From NCBI RefSeq assembly GCF_003966695.1, contig NZ_AP018828.1, forward strand, positions 464,001 through 528,000: 64,000 bases of DNA, read 5' to 3'. Position 1 is the first letter of the stretch; each line of letters opens with the position of its first letter. The notes under the pieces are model-generated. The model was not told the origin of the DNA. It ran no database searches and saw only the letters and a program-made list of their open reading frames with translations. Below, piece by piece: positions 35,815 to 61,470 of the stretch. Both the position numbers and the translations under genes were made by a program. This stretch comes from Asticcacaulis excentricus (GTDB lineage: Bacteria; Pseudomonadota; Alphaproteobacteria; Caulobacterales; Caulobacteraceae).

Positions 35815-36942
35815 TCATTCTGCGGGAGAGGAGCCGGGAGGACAGCCATCAGCTTTGCAGGGCAGCGTGTCGTCCCACCAGATGAGCCGCACCACCCAAT
35901 CGCCGGGTTCAATGCGAGGATCGGTCGCCAGGGAAAGAACCTGTCCCGCACGGGGGGCATTGATCGTCGCCACTGTGTCGCCGAAGGGGTTGTGCACGGT
36001 GAACAGAGGCTGTCCGGCCGTGACCGTATCACCCAGCTTCACCCTAAGGCGGGCCCAGCCGCCTTTCGGCGATTTGACATTGCCAATTGCGTTGCCGACA
36101 AACGGCTTGCCCGGTCCTTCGGCCTTACCCGCCAGCATGCCACGCGTGATCATCAGATTGCGCAGGCCCGACAGGGTGCGTGCGATCATCGGCTCGTCAA
36201 AGGTTTCGGGCGCGCCCAGTTCGTAGGTTACGGCCGGTACGCCAATGGCGTTCAGCATGTTCTCAACAGCGCCATCGACGCCGGGGTCCATATTGATGAC
36301 ATCAGGTTTCAGAGCGTCGGCGATTTTGCGCGCCTCGCCCGTCTGGGCAAAGATATAGGCCGGATAGGTGGTCCCCCGCGACTGGGTATGGAGGTCAACG
36401 GCGAAGTCGGCATTCCCGACAAACAATTGGGTCCAGATGCGATGATCGTAACGCGTGGCCGGGTTGCCTGTCGCTTCATCGGGATGGGGTACGCTGGGCA
36501 TCAGGCGGTTAAGATTGTCTCCGCCGGTGCCGATCACGTCAGAGGTAAAGCCGCGTGTAGAATGCAGGAGGCCTGGCGTATTCAACCCCGGAATGGCCAC
36601 GATGGTGCCGCTGAGGCTGTCCGGGCTGAGGGTTTCCGCCAGCGTATGGATCACCGCAATGCCATTCAGCTCATCGCCATGGATGCCGGCGGTGAGCAGC
36701 AGTTTCGGCCCCGGTTTCGCGCCCTTGATCACCACGACCGGAATATACCAGCCCTGACCGATAGAGGTGTCGAGTACGCGGAACCACAATCGGGTTTTGC
36801 CAGCGGGCAGGTCCGCGACCTCCAGTCTGTCAACGACCTTCACGCCGTCGATGCGGTCGCCGGTATAGGTCGTAGCGGCGGAAAGCGGCGTGGCCAGCGT
36901 AAGCAGGACGAAGGCAGCGAGGCTAAAAAGACGTGAGCGCAT
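35815..36942 (-). CDS. exported M14-family hydrolase, succinylglutamate desuccinylase/aspartoacylase type
   Basis: 375 residues with an N-terminal signal peptide (MRSRLFSLAAFVLLTLATPLSA). The zinc site starts with GIHGDELNGI (HxxE type, His/Glu near 88-91), followed by IPGLNTPGLL, the Asn/Arg segment DNLNRLMP, and the third zinc histidine in VDLHTQSRG. A biotinyl-like C-terminal beta domain (LGDTVTAGQPLFTVHNPFG) is typical of this subfamily. Relatives remove N-acyl groups or C-terminal residues from acidic amino acids. Export to the periplasm and its place beside the cyanophycinase-type fusion suggest work on aspartyl peptides; that is inference. ATG 36942 was chosen for the signal peptide. 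Confidence 0.85.
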   Translation of the reverse strand: MRSRLFSLAAFVLLTLATPLSAATTYTGDRIDGVKVVDRLEVADLPAGKTRLWFRVLDTSIGQGWYIPVVVIKGAKPGPKLLLTAGIHGDELNGIAVIHTLAETLSPDSLSGTIVAIPGLNTPGLLHSTRGFTSDVIGTGGDNLNRLMPSVPHPDEATGNPATRYDHRIWTQLFVGNADFAVDLHTQSRGTTYPAYIFAQTGEARKIADALKPDVINMDPGVDGAVENMLNAIGVPAVTYELGAPETFDEPMIARTLSGLRNLMITRGMLAGKAEGPGKPFVGNAIGNVKSPKGGWARLRVKLGDTVTAGQPLFTVHNPFGDTVATINAPRAGQVLSLATDPRIEPGDWVVRLIWWDDTLPCKADGCPPGSSPAE

Positions 36943-37084
36943 ACGGGCAATCCAGACTAATCCGACGCTTACCTTAGCCCTGCACCGCTGCGGTGTCCAT
37001 TGGCCGCATATGACGTCAAGGCACCTTAACGCCAACGCTAAATTCGCTTAGACATATATGTATGGCTGGTCAGGAGATACCCTC

Positions 37085-38866
37085 ATGAAAACGCTTTACG
37101 CCGTTGTGGTCGTGTTGGTCTGTTGTGCCTCAGCCGCGTTGGCCAAGCCCAGACCGGCGGATATGGCCTTTGTGAACGGGCGCATCCATACGGTCGATGC
37201 CTCCGACACGGTTGTGCAGGCCGTCGCCTTGCGTGATGGGCGGATCGTCTATGTCGGCGATGATGGGGGGGCTAAGGCTCTGATCGGACGCAAGACGCGC
37301 ACTTTTGATCTCAAAGGTCGCATGGTCCTGCCCGGCCTGATCGATGGTCATATGCACCCGCAATCGGGAGGCTTGCGCGAACTGAGTTGCAATCTGCGTT
37401 ATGAGCCGCTGACGGTTCCCCAGTTTCAGGCAAAGATTCAGGACTGTCTCGACGCCGAGCCGGGGGCTGGCCCTGAGGACTGGCTGACGGTCATCAACTG
37501 GTACGAACAGGCCATGCAGCCCGAAGGCACGGTCTTAAGCCACACCGATCTTGACGGGCTTAAGACCACGCGACCGATCATGGTCCGCTCGTCGTTCGGT
37601 CACTCCAACCTGACCAACCGGCGTGGCCTTGACATCGCGGGCATCACCCGCGACACGCCTGACCCCAAGGATGGCCTTATCCGGCGGGATGCGAATGGCG
37701 CGCCCACCGGTCGCTTCGAAGACGCGGCGCAGGCCCTGATCAGCCAGCACGTCCCGCCGCCGGACGCGGCGACCCATCTCAAGGCGACCCGGATCGCTCT
37801 CAAAATGATGCGTGCGCAGGGGATTACGAGCTTCCTTGACGCCTACACCGATATTGAGACCCTCACGGCCTATGGCGAGGTGATGCGCGCGGGTGAACTC
37901 ACGGCGCGCGGGCATTTCGGGGTGCTGATCGATTCGGGCACGGATTACGACGCCGGTAAGGCCGTGGCGGAGGTGGTTCGCCAGAAGCAGACCTATGAGC
38001 GGGTTGCCAAAGGCACCGAGCCGGGCTTGCGCCTTCATACCGCCAAGCTGTTTCTGGATGGGGTGGTGGCCGCGCCGTCACTGACCGGGGTTATGCTGGC
38101 GCCTTATTTTGAGAATGCCGGTACGGCAGCCGTCCCACACTGGCGGCCAGGCAAAAGCCGGGGCCCTCAGCCCTATTTCAGCGACGCCCAGTTGCAGGAT
38201 ACCCTGATCCGCCTCGCGGATGCCGGACTTGATGCGCATATGCACGCCGACGGTGACGGCGCGGTGCGTCAGGCGCTGGATGCCGTGGCCGCCTTGCGCG
38301 CGGCGCGTCCGCAAAGCCCTGTCCGCCCGGCGATTGCCCACGCTGAACTGGTCGATCCGGCTGACTACAGCCGTTTTGGTGAACTGAATGCCTTGCCGGT
38401 GCTGTCGTTTCAGTGGGGCAAGCCGGGACCGGATACGGTGGACAGCGTCCGCGACTATCTGGGACCTGCGCGCCACGCGCTCTTTGAACCTTCGGGGTTG
38501 CTGGAGATTTACGGGGCGCGCCTCGTGTTCGGCAGCGACTGGCCGGTGGATACGCTCAACGAATGGCTCGCGCTGCAAATTGCGGTGACGCGGCGCGCCG
38601 TTGGGGCGGAGGCGCAAAAATATCCTGGACGTCTGGGCGTTGACCCCGGCCTGTCATTGACACAGGCCATACGCGCCATGACCATCAATGCCGCCTATAG
38701 TCTGCATCAGGAGCGCGAAGTGGGCTCAATCGAAGTCGGCAAGATGGCCGACCTGATCGTTATTGACCGTGATCTGTTCGCCATTCCCCCCGAAGAGATC
38801 AGCGGCACAAAGGTCCTGCTGACCCTCGTCGGTGGTCAGGTGGTTTATCAGGCAGGAGATTTGTAA
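37085..38866 (+). CDS. exported amidohydrolase (YtcJ-like, amidohydrolase 3 family)
   Basis: 593 residues with signal peptide (MKTLYAVVVVLVCCASAALA). Metal-dependent amidohydrolase barrel: VLPGLIDGHMHPQSGG gives the HxH metal pair, followed by later histidines in LDAHMHADGDG and IAHAEL and the Asp in VFGSDWPVD. It ends with the beta-sandwich return GKMADLIVIDRDLF. YtcJ-like enzymes hydrolyse N-acyl or amide bonds; substrate unknown. AGGAG precedes the ATG. Divergent from the M14-like gene with a 142-base gap, and followed by a bidirectional terminator shared with the TonB receptor gene. Confidence 0.9.
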   Translation: MKTLYAVVVVLVCCASAALAKPRPADMAFVNGRIHTVDASDTVVQAVALRDGRIVYVGDDGGAKALIGRKTRTFDLKGRMVLPGLIDGHMHPQSGGLRELSCNLRYEPLTVPQFQAKIQDCLDAEPGAGPEDWLTVINWYEQAMQPEGTVLSHTDLDGLKTTRPIMVRSSFGHSNLTNRRGLDIAGITRDTPDPKDGLIRRDANGAPTGRFEDAAQALISQHVPPPDAATHLKATRIALKMMRAQGITSFLDAYTDIETLTAYGEVMRAGELTARGHFGVLIDSGTDYDAGKAVAEVVRQKQTYERVAKGTEPGLRLHTAKLFLDGVVAAPSLTGVMLAPYFENAGTAAVPHWRPGKSRGPQPYFSDAQLQDTLIRLADAGLDAHMHADGDGAVRQALDAVAALRAARPQSPVRPAIAHAELVDPADYSRFGELNALPVLSFQWGKPGPDTVDSVRDYLGPARHALFEPSGLLEIYGARLVFGSDWPVDTLNEWLALQIAVTRRAVGAEAQKYPGRLGVDPGLSLTQAIRAMTINAAYSLHQEREVGSIEVGKMADLIVIDRDLFAIPPEEISGTKVLLTLVGGQVVYQAGDL

Positions 38867-38870
38867 AACA

Positions 38871-38902
38871 GAAAGGCCGGGATCGCTCCCGGCCTTTCGT
38901 TT
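38871..38902. terminator. bidirectional terminator between amidohydrolase and TonB receptor genes
   Basis: GAAAGGCCGGGA-TCGC-TCCCGGCCTTTC followed by GTTTTTT on the plus strand. Confidence 0.85.
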
Positions 38903-38903
38903 T

Positions 38904-41672
38904 TTAATCCAGCTTATAGGTCACCTGCAGGAAGCCCGATCGGCCGATCCCATCGTACCAGCTTGTGTTGTAGTAGGGGTAGCTGACCCACGTCGTGTCA
39001 GAGGGCGGCTTTTTGTCGAACAGGTTGGTGATAGCCAGAGAGACGCGCACCTTGTCATTGACCTTGTACTGCGCCGAGCCGTTATAGGTGGTGTAGGAGC
39101 CGACCCAGGCGTTTTCATCGTAGTTTGGCAGACGGCTCAGATGGTTGCCGGAGAGATTGAAGCTCCACGCGCCCTTCTCCAGATTGGCGGTGATCGAGGC
39201 CTTGTCGCGCGGAATATAGTAGCTGGAATCGTTGGCCAGCTTGTTGATTGCCGGGTCGCCCACATAGCGCGTATAGTCGTGGTCGATGGTGTGCGTATAG
39301 TTGCCGGTCAGGCTTAGCTTGCCGATGGGGGTTTGCAGGCGGGCATGGGCCGACAGGTCCACACCGGATGTGCTTTCCACCGACACGTTGATCGGGCTGA
39401 CGAAGACCTGCGTGATATCGCCGTCGCTATCGCGCGTAACGCGGGCAATCGCGTCCTGACAGGTCGGGGTATTAATGTTTTGCAGGCCGGCGCGGCATTC
39501 GCCTTCGGTCCGCGTCAGATTGTTGACCAGCAGATCCTCAACCTGACCCTTCATGTCGATCTTGAAGTAATCCACGCTGATGTCAAAAGCGCGGCTTGGG
39601 GCCCAGACGAAACCGGTGTTGAACGATTCCGAGGTTTCCGGCTCAAGCTTGAGATTGCCGCCGGTACGGACGCGAATACGCGGCCCGCGACCGCAGTCCG
39701 ACGGGTAGTCTCCATCCTGAATACACTGATAGTAGTCGGTGGCGCGCCCTTCTTCAAAGCCGGTGCCGCGATAGACGTAGTTGAGGTCAGGGGCGCGGAA
39801 GCCCGTACCCCAGGCGGCCCGGAACAGCAGGGTGTCCAATGGGCGGTATTCCAGGCCAATATTATAGGTCGTCTCGGCCACACTATTGCCGGCATAGTCG
39901 AACGTGTCGTAACGCGCCGCCAGACTGGATTGCAAGGTGGAGAGCAGGGGCACGGAGAATTCAACGGCCGCGGCTGCGTGCGTGCGATGCCCTTTGGAAG
40001 TAAAGTCCACCCAGCTGAAATAGTAGGGCTGCGTCGCCTTCGGGTCGGTGCCCTGATTGAAGTTCTGACGGCCCGTTTCGATAATGGCACTGAAACCGAC
40101 CGGGCCCGCCGGCATCTGGAACAGCTCCTGCGTGCCCAGTTGCAGCGAGGCCTGAACAACCGATGAGCGCGGCTTATAGACGCTTTCTTCACGGATCGAC
40201 TCGAACTCCGCCGGGGTCAGGGGCGTGTAGAAGCGTGTCGGGTTGGCGTTGAACACCGGCAGGCCGTAGCCGTCATCTTCGCCCAGATAGGCGTCATCCG
40301 TATCCATGCCCAGTTGCGGCCCAAGGAACAGCGCATTGGCCTTGGCCACATTGATCATGGGGAAGGTCACCTTGGCGTTATAGGCGCTGGCGCTGATGGC
40401 CGCCTCATACGTCCATTTTTCAGCAAAGGTGCCCCGGATGCCCGGCGTGAGGGTGATCGTTTTCGAGTCCACCGTGCGCATGGCGCGGTCCAGCCCGCCC
40501 ATCTCTTCCGGCGTGAAGATACGGTACCAGTTATCGGTGTCTTCGCGAGAAGCGTGGGCATTGTAGAAGTCGCCCACATCATTGCCGTCGGCGTCCTGAT
40601 ACCCCCACGACAACGGACGCTTGAGCAGCTTCAGCTTGCTGAATCCCACCTGCGCGTCAAGGAAGAGGTGCGTGTTGTCGTTCAGGTCGTAGGTGAAGGA
40701 CCCGACAAAGTTGGCGCTTTTGCGGTCTGAGACGACGGTGCGATAGCCCTGAGCCGTCTGCGAACCGCAATAGGTGCCGTCATAATAGGGGTCGCTCTGC
40801 ACCGTTGTGGTGCCGCCATTGGTGGACGCCGTGCGCGCGCAATCGGCAGCCGACGGGTTGATGGCATAGACATCGTAATCCACGCGCAGCCAGTTGGTCA
40901 CCCCCATCTGATAGGCGGGGTCGGGGGCGTCGGCGGTCGAGTCCTGACGCTTGCGCTGATAGCCATAGACCGGGTCCTGGATCATCACTTCGCCGCCGAA
41001 GACTCCGTGGAACTTGCCGAAGTCAAAGCCGGATGACGCATTGAAGCGGTGTGAGGCACCGCCGCCCTGTTCGGTCCAGCCGTAGCGGTAGTCGAAGGTC
41101 GTGCCGTCGGCGTGCTGCTTGAGCTTGAAGTTGACGACACCGGCAAGGGCGTCCGAACCGTAGATGGCCGAGGCCGATCCGCTCAGCACTTCGATGGCAT
41201 CGACCATGCCCAGCGGGATGTTCGAAATATCGGTGAAGTTTGAATCGCCGTTATAGGGCATCGGATAGTCGGCGACGCGGCGGCCATTGACCATGACCAG
41301 AGTATGGTTCGGGCCAAGGCCGCGCAGGTTCACCTGCTGGGCCCCCGGCGAATAGTCGGCCGCGTTGCCCGATTGCATGCTCTGTGTTTCACCGCTGTTC
41401 TGGGTGAGGGTCTTCAGCACATCCGGCACATTAGCGAAGCCGCCGGCACGGATCTGGTCAGAGGTGATGACGGTCACGGGAGCCGGGCCTTCCTTGCGCA
41501 CCCGTGGGATGCGTGAGCCCACAACCGTCACCACCTGCGGTTCTTCGGCCGAGACCGGTTCACTGGTGGCGGGGGTCGTTTGCGCCAGCGCTGCCGTGGC
41601 CGCAAGTCCATACAGGCTGCACCCCATCATCAGGCTCAACTTGCAATAGGTGGTGAGGCGGTTCTGCGGCAT
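38904..41672 (-). CDS. TonB-dependent outer membrane receptor
   Basis: 922 residues. Signal peptide to about residue 30, a TonB-box-like VVTVVGSRIPR near 47-57, the plug domain (about 60-185: NVPDVLKTLTQ, VNLRGLGPNHTLVMVNGRR, IEVLSGSASAIYGSDALAG) and a long beta-barrel ending FLQVTYKLD with aromatic/hydrophobic terminal strand. This is the large receptor type used by Caulobacterales for sugars, peptides and other polymers, not a siderophore-specific signature. It is divergent from the cyanophycinase-type fusion (204-base shared gap), so coordinated control is likely. GGAG lies before the ATG. Confidence 0.94.
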   Translation of the reverse strand: MPQNRLTTYCKLSLMMGCSLYGLAATAALAQTTPATSEPVSAEEPQVVTVVGSRIPRVRKEGPAPVTVITSDQIRAGGFANVPDVLKTLTQNSGETQSMQSGNAADYSPGAQQVNLRGLGPNHTLVMVNGRRVADYPMPYNGDSNFTDISNIPLGMVDAIEVLSGSASAIYGSDALAGVVNFKLKQHADGTTFDYRYGWTEQGGGASHRFNASSGFDFGKFHGVFGGEVMIQDPVYGYQRKRQDSTADAPDPAYQMGVTNWLRVDYDVYAINPSAADCARTASTNGGTTTVQSDPYYDGTYCGSQTAQGYRTVVSDRKSANFVGSFTYDLNDNTHLFLDAQVGFSKLKLLKRPLSWGYQDADGNDVGDFYNAHASREDTDNWYRIFTPEEMGGLDRAMRTVDSKTITLTPGIRGTFAEKWTYEAAISASAYNAKVTFPMINVAKANALFLGPQLGMDTDDAYLGEDDGYGLPVFNANPTRFYTPLTPAEFESIREESVYKPRSSVVQASLQLGTQELFQMPAGPVGFSAIIETGRQNFNQGTDPKATQPYYFSWVDFTSKGHRTHAAAAVEFSVPLLSTLQSSLAARYDTFDYAGNSVAETTYNIGLEYRPLDTLLFRAAWGTGFRAPDLNYVYRGTGFEEGRATDYYQCIQDGDYPSDCGRGPRIRVRTGGNLKLEPETSESFNTGFVWAPSRAFDISVDYFKIDMKGQVEDLLVNNLTRTEGECRAGLQNINTPTCQDAIARVTRDSDGDITQVFVSPINVSVESTSGVDLSAHARLQTPIGKLSLTGNYTHTIDHDYTRYVGDPAINKLANDSSYYIPRDKASITANLEKGAWSFNLSGNHLSRLPNYDENAWVGSYTTYNGSAQYKVNDKVRVSLAITNLFDKKPPSDTTWVSYPYYNTSWYDGIGRSGFLQVTYKLD

Positions 41673-41876
41673 CAGGCAATCTCCAGTCCATTGGTGCGAC
41701 GGTGACATCTCCGGCCGTCCGGCAGATTTTATTGCAAACCGGACATTTCGCGGAGATTTCGTGTCTTAAGCGGGCCGTATTTTACTTTTTCACGCAATCA
41801 TTTTGTTGTCGCGTCATAAATTCTCCGTCAAGGTGACGTAAATTTGTTGCACTCACATACCGCACAGGAGACTGAA
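41673..41876. promoter_or_regulatory. divergent promoter region between the TonB receptor and the fusion hydrolase
   Basis: 204 bases, AT-richer than the genes. It must hold both promoters. No strong palindrome was found; TTGTTG...CATAAATT near 41801-41822 is a weak candidate for the rightward promoter. Confidence 0.4.
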
Positions 41877-43820
41877 ATGCGCCGTCTGATCGTGAGCCTC
41901 GCCCTGTGTGTTCTGGCTATGGCCCTGCCCGCGCAGGCGAAACCCAAAAGCTGGACAGGTGGGCCGGGCTACAAGACCTTTGTTATTGGGGATGAAAGCC
42001 GCCCGACCCCCGGTGAGGTGAAGGGCGGGCTTTTGATGTCCGGCGGCGGGGACTGGGCCTATGAGGCGTTTCGCTGGTTCGTCAATCGCGCCGGCAACGG
42101 CCATATCGTGGTGCTGCGCGCCTCAGGGACGACGGAATCGCAGGACGAATTCTATAACGGCGTTAAGGGTGTCACGAGCGTTCGCACCTTTTTGTTCACC
42201 GATCGGAAGGCGGCCTCTGACCCGAAACTTCTGGCGGCGGTTCGCAAGGCCGATGGCATCTTTCTGGCCGGTGGGGATCAGGCGCGCTACGTGCGTTACT
42301 GGAAAGGGACGCCGCTGAATCAACTGATCGATGCCCATGTCGCAGCCGGAAAGCCTTTGGGCGGCACCAGTGCGGGGCTGGCGGTGCAGGGGAGCTGGGC
42401 CTACGGGGCTATGGATGGCGGCAGCGTCACCTCGCCGGAGGCGCTGAAAGACCCGCTGGGGCCAGCGGTCACCATGGTCGGTGATTTCCTGCATTTCGAG
42501 CTTTTGACCCGGATTGTCACCGACAGCCACTTTGCCGAACGTGACCGTCTGGGCCGTCTGTTTGCCTTTGTGGTCAAGGCTAATCAACTCAGGGCCTCGC
42601 CCACCGTGCGCTATGCCCAGCCGCTGGTGGGGCTTGGCATAGACGAAGAAGCCGCGCTGACTGTTGAAGCCGACGGCACGGCGCGTGTCCACACCGACAA
42701 GGATGGCAAGGCGTGGCTGGTTGCGGGCGGTGAGGTGACAGACCTCGAACCTGGCAAGCCGCTGAACCTGCAAGGGGTTTCTGTTATAGGTATCGGCAAA
42801 TCCTCAACCTTTAACATCCGGACGCTGGCGGTCGGTAACCCGGCCTTCACCCGCACCTATGACGTCAAAGACGGTGTGGTGACACAGCGCTTGCACTGGT
42901 CGCTGGCCCTCCACGGCGGGGCAGGGGTCATTGAGCGCGCCAACATGCCGCCGGAGAAGGAGGCGCGCTATCGGGCCTCTCTGACGCAGGCGCTTGAGGT
43001 GGGGCAGAAGGTGCTGGCGGGCGGCGGAAGCGCGCTTGAGGCCGTCGAAGCCACGGCGCGCGTGCTGGAAGACGATCCCTTGTTCAACGCCGGCCGGGGC
43101 GCGGTCATTGCCGCCGATGGTAAGGCCTATCTCGATGCCGCCATCATGGACGGCGGCACGATGAAGGCGGGGGCGGTTGCGGGTGTCACGCGCACAAAAA
43201 ACCCTATCCGTCTGGCGCGCCGGGTGATGGATAAGACGCGCCATGTGTTTCTCGCTGGGGAAGGCGCGGACGCCTTCTCGGTGGCGCAGGGGCTTGAGCA
43301 GGTCGATCCGTCCTATTTCCTGACACCTGAGCGCCAGAAGGCGTTTGAGGCCTGGAAGGCGAAGAATCTGGCGGGCATCGACCGGTCGCACCTCTATGGC
43401 ACCATCGGCGTCGTCGCGCTTGACTCTGACGGCCATCTGGCGGCCGCCACCTCGACGGGCGGGCTGATGGGGAAACAGTGGGGCCGCATCGGTGATGCCC
43501 CGGTCATCGGGGCGGGCACCTATGCCCGCGACGGGGACTGCGCCGTTTCGGCGACGGGAACCGGTGAGTATTTCATTCGTGACAGCGCCGCGCGGCAGGT
43601 CTGTGACCGCGTGCGCTGGAATAAGGAAACGATTGATCAGGCCGCCTATAACACAATTATGTCGGTGGGGGCTCTGGGCGGCGATGGCGGTCTGATTGCC
43701 ATGGATAAGGATGGCAGGGCGGTGTTTGCGATCAATGATCTCGGCATGTACCGCGGGGCCGTGTCTTCGGACGCACCGACGCCACTCACCGGCATCTTTG
43801 CGGGTGAAGCGTTGAAGTAG
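41877..43820 (+). CDS. exported cyanophycinase-isoaspartyl peptidase fusion
   Basis: 647 residues in one frame. Signal peptide ends near AQA (residues 19-21). Residues about 30-320 are an S51 cyanophycinase: FLAGGDQARYVRYWKGTPL (129-147), nucleophile Ser165 in GGTSAGLAVQG, DSHFAERDRLGRLFAFV (216-232) and GIDEEAAL. Residues about 342-645 are a type 2 asparaginase/isoaspartyl peptidase: ALHGGAGVI, DDPLFNAGRGAV, the autocleavage and nucleophile site YGTIGVVALD with Thr509, ATSTGGLMGKQWGRIGD and ATGTGEYFIRD. Cyanophycinase releases beta-Asp-Arg dipeptides, which isoaspartyl peptidase splits, so the two halves are consecutive steps. CAGGAG precedes ATG 41877. Both active sites look complete. Real substrate is inferred. 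Confidence 0.9.
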   Translation: MRRLIVSLALCVLAMALPAQAKPKSWTGGPGYKTFVIGDESRPTPGEVKGGLLMSGGGDWAYEAFRWFVNRAGNGHIVVLRASGTTESQDEFYNGVKGVTSVRTFLFTDRKAASDPKLLAAVRKADGIFLAGGDQARYVRYWKGTPLNQLIDAHVAAGKPLGGTSAGLAVQGSWAYGAMDGGSVTSPEALKDPLGPAVTMVGDFLHFELLTRIVTDSHFAERDRLGRLFAFVVKANQLRASPTVRYAQPLVGLGIDEEAALTVEADGTARVHTDKDGKAWLVAGGEVTDLEPGKPLNLQGVSVIGIGKSSTFNIRTLAVGNPAFTRTYDVKDGVVTQRLHWSLALHGGAGVIERANMPPEKEARYRASLTQALEVGQKVLAGGGSALEAVEATARVLEDDPLFNAGRGAVIAADGKAYLDAAIMDGGTMKAGAVAGVTRTKNPIRLARRVMDKTRHVFLAGEGADAFSVAQGLEQVDPSYFLTPERQKAFEAWKAKNLAGIDRSHLYGTIGVVALDSDGHLAAATSTGGLMGKQWGRIGDAPVIGAGTYARDGDCAVSATGTGEYFIRDSAARQVCDRVRWNKETIDQAAYNTIMSVGALGGDGGLIAMDKDGRAVFAINDLGMYRGAVSSDAPTPLTGIFAGEALK

Positions 43821-43897
43821 GCCGTCCGCACCTCACCACCCTGAGATTGCGCAAACGGTTACGTGACTAAGCTGACGGCCAAAATTGCTCGTGACGG

Positions 43898-59874: not shown

Positions 59875-59887
59875 TATCACCACTCTT

Positions 59888-59929
59888 CTATTCGTAGCTG
59901 CTGTACCGGTCCTGACGCGCCAGATTGCC
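59888..59929 (-). repeat. displaced duplicate of the dnaB 3' end
   Basis: 42 bases identical to 59995-60036, which encode the last 13 codons and stop of dnaB (NLARQDRYSSYE region). The copies are direct repeats 107 bases apart, and 65 bases of unrelated sequence lie between them. Confidence 0.9.
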
Positions 59930-59994
59930 GCCCGCTCTCAGGCAGCGAAGCGATAGAGCAAAGTAAGGCGGTTTGGCCGGTAAGATACGCCACT

Positions 59995-61470
<1,476 letters not shown>

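Follow-up and report, generated by a model that had tools for sequence, protein, structure and literature searches.

An exported fusion of a cyanophycinase-like S51 peptidase with an isoaspartyl peptidase, recurrent in several bacterial lineages and mostly encoded beside a TonB-dependent receptor

Gene organization and domain architecture

The window described here, the whole stretch of DNA that was analysed, comprises 64,000 nucleotides from Asticcacaulis excentricus (RefSeq assembly GCF_003966695.1, contig NZ_AP018828.1, positions 464,001 to 528,000 of the forward strand). It carries a gene for an exported two-domain hydrolase, divergent from a TonB-dependent receptor gene and accompanied by two other hydrolase genes (positions are those of the window):

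41877..43820, + strand: fusion gene, exported S51 (cyanophycinase-like) plus IaaA-type isoaspartyl peptidase, 647 residues
41866..41870, + strand: ribosome-binding site AGGAG, 6 bases 5' of ATG 41877, read from the sequence
41877..41939, + strand: signal peptide, residues 1–21, cleavage after AQA, assigned by eye
41940..42890, + strand: S51 half, residues 22–338; key residues Ser165 (42369–42371), Gln135, Asp216, His218, Arg222/224/227, Asp256 and Glu257
42891..43817, + strand: IaaA half, residues 339–647; nucleophile Thr509 (43401–43403)
38904..41708, − strand: TonB-dependent receptor, conserved partner of the fusion
37085..38866, + strand: exported hydrolase of the Amidohydro_3 type (PF07969), oriented towards the receptor gene; its longest open reading frame starts at 37058
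35815..36942, − strand: exported AstE/AspA-type (PF24827) hydrolase, 375 residues

The sequence-only reading of this locus had described one uninterrupted frame with a signal peptide, and this was borne out: a single open frame runs from the ATG at 41877 to the stop codon at 43818–43820 and begins with the predicted signal peptide MRRLIVSLALCVLAMALPAQA, in which no lipobox was seen by eye. The S51 signatures (GGDQ at residues 132–135, Ser165 in GTSAG and DSHFAERDRLGR at 216–227) and Thr509 in YGTIG, with a predicted self-cleavage point at Gly508–Thr509, all lie where they were first claimed to be. A search with hmmscan against Pfam returned PF03575 (Peptidase_S51; E = 9.5e-9, 35.7 bits, cut-off 23.9) and PF01112 (Asparaginase_2; E = 5.5e-98, 328.3 bits, cut-off 27). 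The dN/dS ratios (Nei–Gojobori, custom script) against two close relatives are 0.078 and 0.050 for the fusion gene and 0.03–0.10 for the separate halves. A frame artefact or annotation join is ruled out by the single frame, the many genomes that carry the fusion and the low dN/dS. An AlphaFold2 model calculated from an alignment of 49 sequences has a mean pLDDT of 87.9 and a pTM of 0.77.

The join between the halves is short, with no insert in 32 of the 34 aligned fusions and a longer linker in the other two (L069 and L073). A signal peptide was recognized by eye in 18 of the 20 fusions whose N termini were read, a set drawn from outside the fusions of loci L110–L128 (family f47, see below). 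The exceptions are the two copies in genome G133 (L058, 9834–11615, − strand; L059, 8827–10629, − strand), neither of which has a clean signal peptide; L058, the second copy, starts near query residue 60 and has no adjoining receptor.

Genomic context

Receptors belonging to one linkage cluster occur in 35 of 43 loci, namely in 35 of the 38 that bear an S51 domain and in none of the five with IaaA only; the eight loci that lack one are these five, the second G133 copy, L097 (which begins at the contig start) and the S51-only locus L106. In family f47, which probably belongs to the Gammaproteobacteria, all 21 loci, of which 20 are fusions, have a labelled receptor, and 16 have labelled FecI- or FecR-like genes. 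The receptor also adjoins both fusions found in Novosphingobium. An Lrp/AsnC regulator is present in 16 of the 43 loci, directly 3' of the fusion in eight and after a pair of separate genes in four, so that eight fusion loci of Asticcacaulis read receptor, fusion, Lrp/AsnC, the same arrangement being seen in Novosphingobium; no such regulator follows the fusion of the window itself. In genus g22 (L091–L094) the order is receptor, S51, IaaA, Lrp/AsnC regulator. Of the 43 loci, 17 have an exported Amidohydro_3 gene next to the receptor. In three loci the fusion is accompanied by a carrier of the SDF type, GltP/DctA-like but scoring below both cut-offs, and a gene identified from its sequence as EF-Tu adjoins four of the fusions and four of the pairs in f47. 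In L106 (7261–9845, − strand) an S51-only gene overlaps a gene of the Amidohydro_3 cluster by a few bases, with no receptor.

The block from 35817 to 43845 (AstE/AspA-type hydrolase, Amidohydro_3 protein, receptor and fusion, about 8 kb) is kept at 92.5% in one close relative (L033), and the part from 37046 to 43845 is kept at 96.4% in another (L032), where the contig starts at that point; both relatives lose similarity 25 bases past the fusion stop codon. The AstE/AspA-type gene had no tblastn match in 20 other loci (L054–L073). This neighbour was considered as a CphZ dipeptide hydrolase, an assignment that is unsupported, its best PDB matches being of the DoeB type; its match to PDB entry 8ein, which we guess to be a CphZ, covers a short stretch (E = 6.6e-6). 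In the window genes that were scanned, no inner-membrane carrier turned up, and none of the 15 window proteins searched against Pfam is the product of an obvious arginine gene. A promoter and terminator scan found 0 and 1, respectively, against 0.5 and 2.1 in shuffled sequences.

Between 31405 and 35279 lie a phage-type integrase gene, which closely follows a GMP synthase gene, and an IS21-type pair directly upstream of the hydrolase–receptor–fusion block. The block may therefore be mobile or have moved recently; no direct repeat flanking it stood out. Elsewhere in the window (59887–60036) a 43-base sequence occurs twice without change, the copies 107 bases apart.

Relationship of the S51 half to cyanophycinases

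In the predicted model, the S51 half is structurally similar to CphB (PDB code 3en0; Z = 27.5 over 248 residues, r.m.s.d. 2.4) and to 7uqw (Z = 27.4), an entry whose title names Ser132 and describes a bound cyanophycin dimer; the corresponding Z for dipeptidase E is 17.8. A profile of 19 S51 domains of the family matched 3en0 with an E value of 1.5e-23, against 8e-5 for the acI-B1 peptidase 6nqc and 3e-4 for PepE types. The nearest relative is therefore not dipeptidase E or some other S51 subgroup, CphB matching far better.

The NCBIfam equivalog model TIGR02069, with a cut-off of 126.6 bits, scores the window protein at 89 bits, three relatives at 92.8, 105.5 and 100.7 and seven further relatives at 84.6–102.5. 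A survey of 150 genomes of the order gave 28 matches to this model at E ≤ 0.001, 20 of them above the cut-off; among the matches listed, the window protein and five other fusions all fall below it. In an unrooted tree without an outgroup, 23 fusion-type S51 sequences and 11 canonical cyanophycinases (from nine loci and two PDB entries, one with pseudo-CphB in its title) lie on opposite sides of one branch with support of 100/100; L135 was omitted because no frame passed the motif filter.

All 23 clade members retain the residues that correspond to Gln101, Ser132, Asp172, His174, Arg178, Arg180, Arg183, Asp200 and Glu201 of CphB, and the same set, Asp200 included, is identical in the 11 canonical sequences; the CphB-type catalytic and arginine-motif residues are likewise kept in 34 of 34 aligned fusions. 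The choice of these residues and the roles that we take them to have are in part our own assumption. His174 and Arg178 of CphB are described as substrate-binding (PMC12661447). Four sites invariant in CphB types are replaced in every clade member (Gln173 by Ser/Thr, Ala135 by Leu, Gly146 by Met/Leu and Ala187 by Phe), while Arg103 is retained in eight of the 23, an Arg being present in 22 of the 34 fusions. Since the catalytic residues are kept and their CphB-invariant neighbours are replaced, the chemistry of this half looks conserved, judging from the alignment, with the surroundings of the site changed.

The sequence-only reading had identified this half as a cyanophycinase. Fold and catalytic residues speak for that identity, but the protein misses the TIGR02069 cut-off (89 versus 126.6 bits) and lies outside the canonical clade. 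The HMM comparison that had been proposed as a check has the same mixed result: the nearest subgroup is cyanophycinase and the catalytic residues are kept, yet the sequences form a distinct clade below the cut-off. Given the missed cut-off, the separate clade and the changed residues, we use `cyanophycinase' as a lead to the substrate and not as settled membership.

The IaaA half

The claim of a complete Thr-nucleophile isoaspartyl peptidase held up, by the PF01112 match, by fold and by residues. The predicted model of this half superposes on Escherichia coli IaaA (PDB code 2zak) with Z = 47.3 and an r.m.s.d. of 1.6 over 297 residues, and the sequence is 46% identical to that enzyme over the domain. 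Asn404, Thr509, Thr527, Arg537, Asp540, Thr560, Gly561 and Gly563 are retained in all 34 aligned fusions, position 562 being variable; the roles that we assign to them (Thr nucleophile, substrate-binding Arg and Asp, TGxG) are presumed. A degenerate half kept as a scaffold is ruled out on sequence, both residue sets being intact in 34 of 34 fusions. The NCBIfam equivalog NF007589 (cut-off 567 bits) gives 278 bits for the window protein, and since the separate IaaA of L091 (300.7) and the fusion of L103 (310.2) also miss the cut-off, it is evidently a strict model that leaves out the wider IaaA group.

Distribution and evolutionary history

Tabulated across genomes, the two-domain architecture recurs well beyond one genome. 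Among 149 sampled family members, 14 genomes carry full-length, one-frame fusions, every one of them from Asticcacaulis and one (G133) with two copies. The corresponding counts are seven of 299 genomes for the order (five from other families), three of 398 for the phylum and 32 of 149 for f47, which belongs to another class; a class-wide sample gave one in 289, the source genome itself. These samples overlap, and the E-value-ranked matches extend far below the full-length fusions. Two Novosphingobium plasmids carry the fusion (92% of the query covered, 59% identity), as do two Asticcacaulis metagenome-assembled genomes, with proteins 98 and 96% identical to that of the window. Matches to the IaaA half only came from one Chitinophagales locus (genome contigs selected by pattern, three loci in all) and from three phage records. 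The distribution is thus patchy yet not rare, and the fusion is known from three lineages: the order of the window, Novosphingobium and f47. The sequence-only reading was aware of no described fusion of this kind, and no published description of an S51–IaaA fusion was found among open-licence PubMed Central papers.

Where the two enzymes are separate, S51 directly precedes IaaA on the same strand in all 10 pairs inspected, and each partner bears its own signal peptide, as judged by eye. The S51 and IaaA phylogenies conflict. Almost every fusion belongs to a single group in the S51 tree, inside which three S51-only genes (L066, L067 and L106) are nested, and the G256 fusion is placed elsewhere; in the IaaA tree, fusions sort according to class, and in f47 they are interspersed with the pairs. 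One full-length match in f47 (L123, genome G855) was left out of these trees and of the 34-fusion alignment by the motif and frame filter. A single origin of the fusion was considered and rejected, the AU test refusing one fusion clade for S51 (p = 9e-74) and for IaaA (p = 4e-8); with the G256 fusion removed, the values are 1e-5 and 6e-48. The S51 rejection without G256 is partly due to the nested S51-only genes, and because of them gene fission is also likely to have occurred. G124 and G080 have a lone S51 gene inside the fused group, and G080 has a separate IaaA gene with a signal peptide elsewhere in its genome. From the disagreement of the half-trees, the AU test and these lone S51 genes, it follows on phylogenetic grounds that fusion, fission or partner exchange has happened more than once. 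The IaaA-only gene of L108 shows no signal peptide by eye.

Canonical cyanophycinase loci of the order

For comparison, we analysed the surroundings of canonical cyanophycinase genes in 14 stretches from the same order. Four of them (L183, L187, L188 and L189) contain a row of receptor, DcuC-type carrier, exported cyanophycinase and IaaA, the IaaA having no signal peptide in four of four by eye and the receptor being only 24–27% identical to that of the fusions; the other ten stretches showed none of this kind. Each of these four could be a complete cyanophycin uptake locus. In L184, L185 and L186 an exported cyanophycinase has no labelled receptor or IaaA adjoining, L195 and L196 have IaaA near the canonical cyanophycinase, and the gene order in L193 is cyanophycin synthetase, IaaA, cyanophycinase. 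Another family of this order, f5, encodes 735-residue proteins with two S51-like halves (L191, 6269–9061 and 9076–11283, + strand; L192, 7758–9965, − strand), one half over the cyanophycinase cut-off and the other weak; that of L191 adjoins a cyanophycin-synthetase-like gene.

With the carrier present and IaaA without a signal peptide, some canonical scavengers of the order seem to import the dipeptide, the presumed cargo of the carrier, and to split it inside the cell; in the fusion the dipeptidase is exported, and this last step appears to be moved to the periplasm. Cyanophycin synthetase (TIGR02068, cphA1) exceeded its cut-off in none of 25 Asticcacaulis genomes, the source genome included; the control gave one of 14 over the cut-off, and the matches below it in all 25 are of the kind given by Mur ligases and ATP-grasp enzymes. 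This result for cphA1 fits a scavenger. The window itself presents a fused S51–IaaA pair with a TonB-dependent receptor as the transporter beside it, and in Citromicrobium a receptor near a cyanophycinase gene is interpreted as serving cyanophycin uptake (PMC3400609).

Proposed function

These observations lead us to propose, with somewhat more confidence than doubt, that the fusion is an exported two-step hydrolase within a TonB-dependent scavenging locus for a β-aspartyl polymer or oligomers. The receptor would admit the polymer or oligomers (cyanophycin or a close relative) to the periplasm, where, rather than in the medium, the S51 half would cut α peptide bonds next to β-substituted aspartates, releasing β-aspartyl dipeptides. 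The IaaA half would self-cleave before Thr509 and, once processed, might hydrolyse these dipeptides to free aspartate and its partner amino acid, both of which could then enter the cell through ordinary amino-acid carriers. Of the periplasmic two-step enzyme taking cyanophycin or a related polymer to free amino acids, as first suggested from the sequence, the export signal and the two complete active sites stand and the cphA1 result fits, while cyanophycin as substrate is a lead; a hand-over of substrate between the halves, also suggested there, is conceivable. The TIGR02069 result, the separate S51 clade, the weak similarity of the canonical receptor, its lack in ten of the 14 canonical stretches, the neighbours of D-amino-acid type in g22 and the want of an obvious arginine gene among the 15 window proteins all count against this proposal.

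A stricter form of this proposal, in which the fusion is specific for cyanophycin and yields free Asp and Arg (or Lys), draws on the fold and catalytic residues, on the parallel with four of the 14 canonical loci of the order and on the failure of any cphA1 match in the genus to exceed its cut-off; against the missed TIGR02069 cut-off and the separate clade we regard it as conceivable but doubtful. The main rival reading, rather unlikely in our judgement, is that the S51 half acts instead on protein- or cell-wall-derived peptides of the D-aspartyl, N-acyl or aged isoaspartyl kind, making the enzyme a general scavenger of odd aspartyl bonds and not of a poly-aspartate. The separate clade with its altered CphB-invariant residues would suit such a role, as would the gene neighbourhoods: in g22, DgcN/DgcA-like genes follow the pair in L090–L093 (475 against 480 and 391.4 against 400 bits in L091, just below the cut-offs) and an exported Amidohydro_3 gene, presumably of the N-acyl-D-amino-acid-deacylase type, follows it in L090–L094; these neighbours, the former related to D-glutamate catabolism, point to D-amino acids. 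The Amidohydro_3 overlap in L106 and the exported Amidohydro_3 proteins of 17 of the 43 loci tend the same way. However, every CphB catalytic and arginine-motif residue is retained, the DgcN/DgcA-like genes were not found adjoining the fusions themselves, and both sequence and fold place the IaaA half with the ordinary IaaA enzymes.

More speculatively still, the S51 clade could represent a new activity on a β-linked aspartyl polymer other than cyanophycin, with the fusion a repeatedly evolved periplasmic two-step machine and the receptor its uptake gate. A role in detoxification is highly improbable. MccG, an S51 peptidase, acts on isoaspartyl nucleotides, and an enzyme of its type might cut those of microcin C-like antibiotics while the fused IaaA does related work; but the same source assigns MccG to S51 clade V and cyanophycinase to clade IV (PMC9239234). 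The S51 half of the window is closest to cyanophycinase, and export and a receptor partner suit nutrition and not cytoplasmic immunity.

The recurrence of the fusion in three lineages, with active sites intact in 34 of 34 and mostly beside a receptor, suggests that selection couples both steps outside the cytoplasm. The proposed scavenging hydrolase is a compact candidate enzyme in which one-step conversion of cyanophycin to free amino acids can be tested, its locus offers a testable receptor–substrate pair, and the gene may mark bacteria that feed on the nitrogen stores of other cells. Should the substrate not be cyanophycin, it would be a class of polymer or peptide not yet linked to these enzymes.

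Comparison with known systems

With CphB and CphE (MEROPS S51; PDB codes 3en0 and 7uqw) the fusion shares the fold with its C-terminal extension and the catalytic residues, and with CphE also an export signal; it differs in lying outside the canonical clade and below the TIGR02069 cut-off, in being fused to a second enzyme and, relative to CphB, in the clade substitutions Q173S/T, A135L, G146M/L and A187F. With IaaA and the plant-type isoaspartyl peptidases (PF01112; PDB codes 2zak and 8dqm) it shares the fold, the Thr nucleophile and the neighbouring residues, but it is exported and has a 338-residue N-terminal extension (signal peptide and S51 half), because of which the N terminus of its α-chain is not free.

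According to the available text of Sharon and Schmeing (2023; PMC10206079), cyanophycin breakdown takes two separate enzymes, general isoaspartyl dipeptidases usually being credited with the last step, and in 94% of 32 CphA-less genomes with cyanophycinase and IaaA the genes are clustered. Those scavenging clusters resemble the present locus in a cyanophycinase-type S51 gene adjoining IaaA, no cphA1 and a transporter nearby, but consist of neighbouring genes where here there is one polypeptide, a fusion that this text does not mention. The four canonical loci of the order (L183 and L187–L189) show the same logic of a receptor plus two enzymes; there a carrier lies between and IaaA is unexported, whereas in the fusion both enzymes are exported as one chain.
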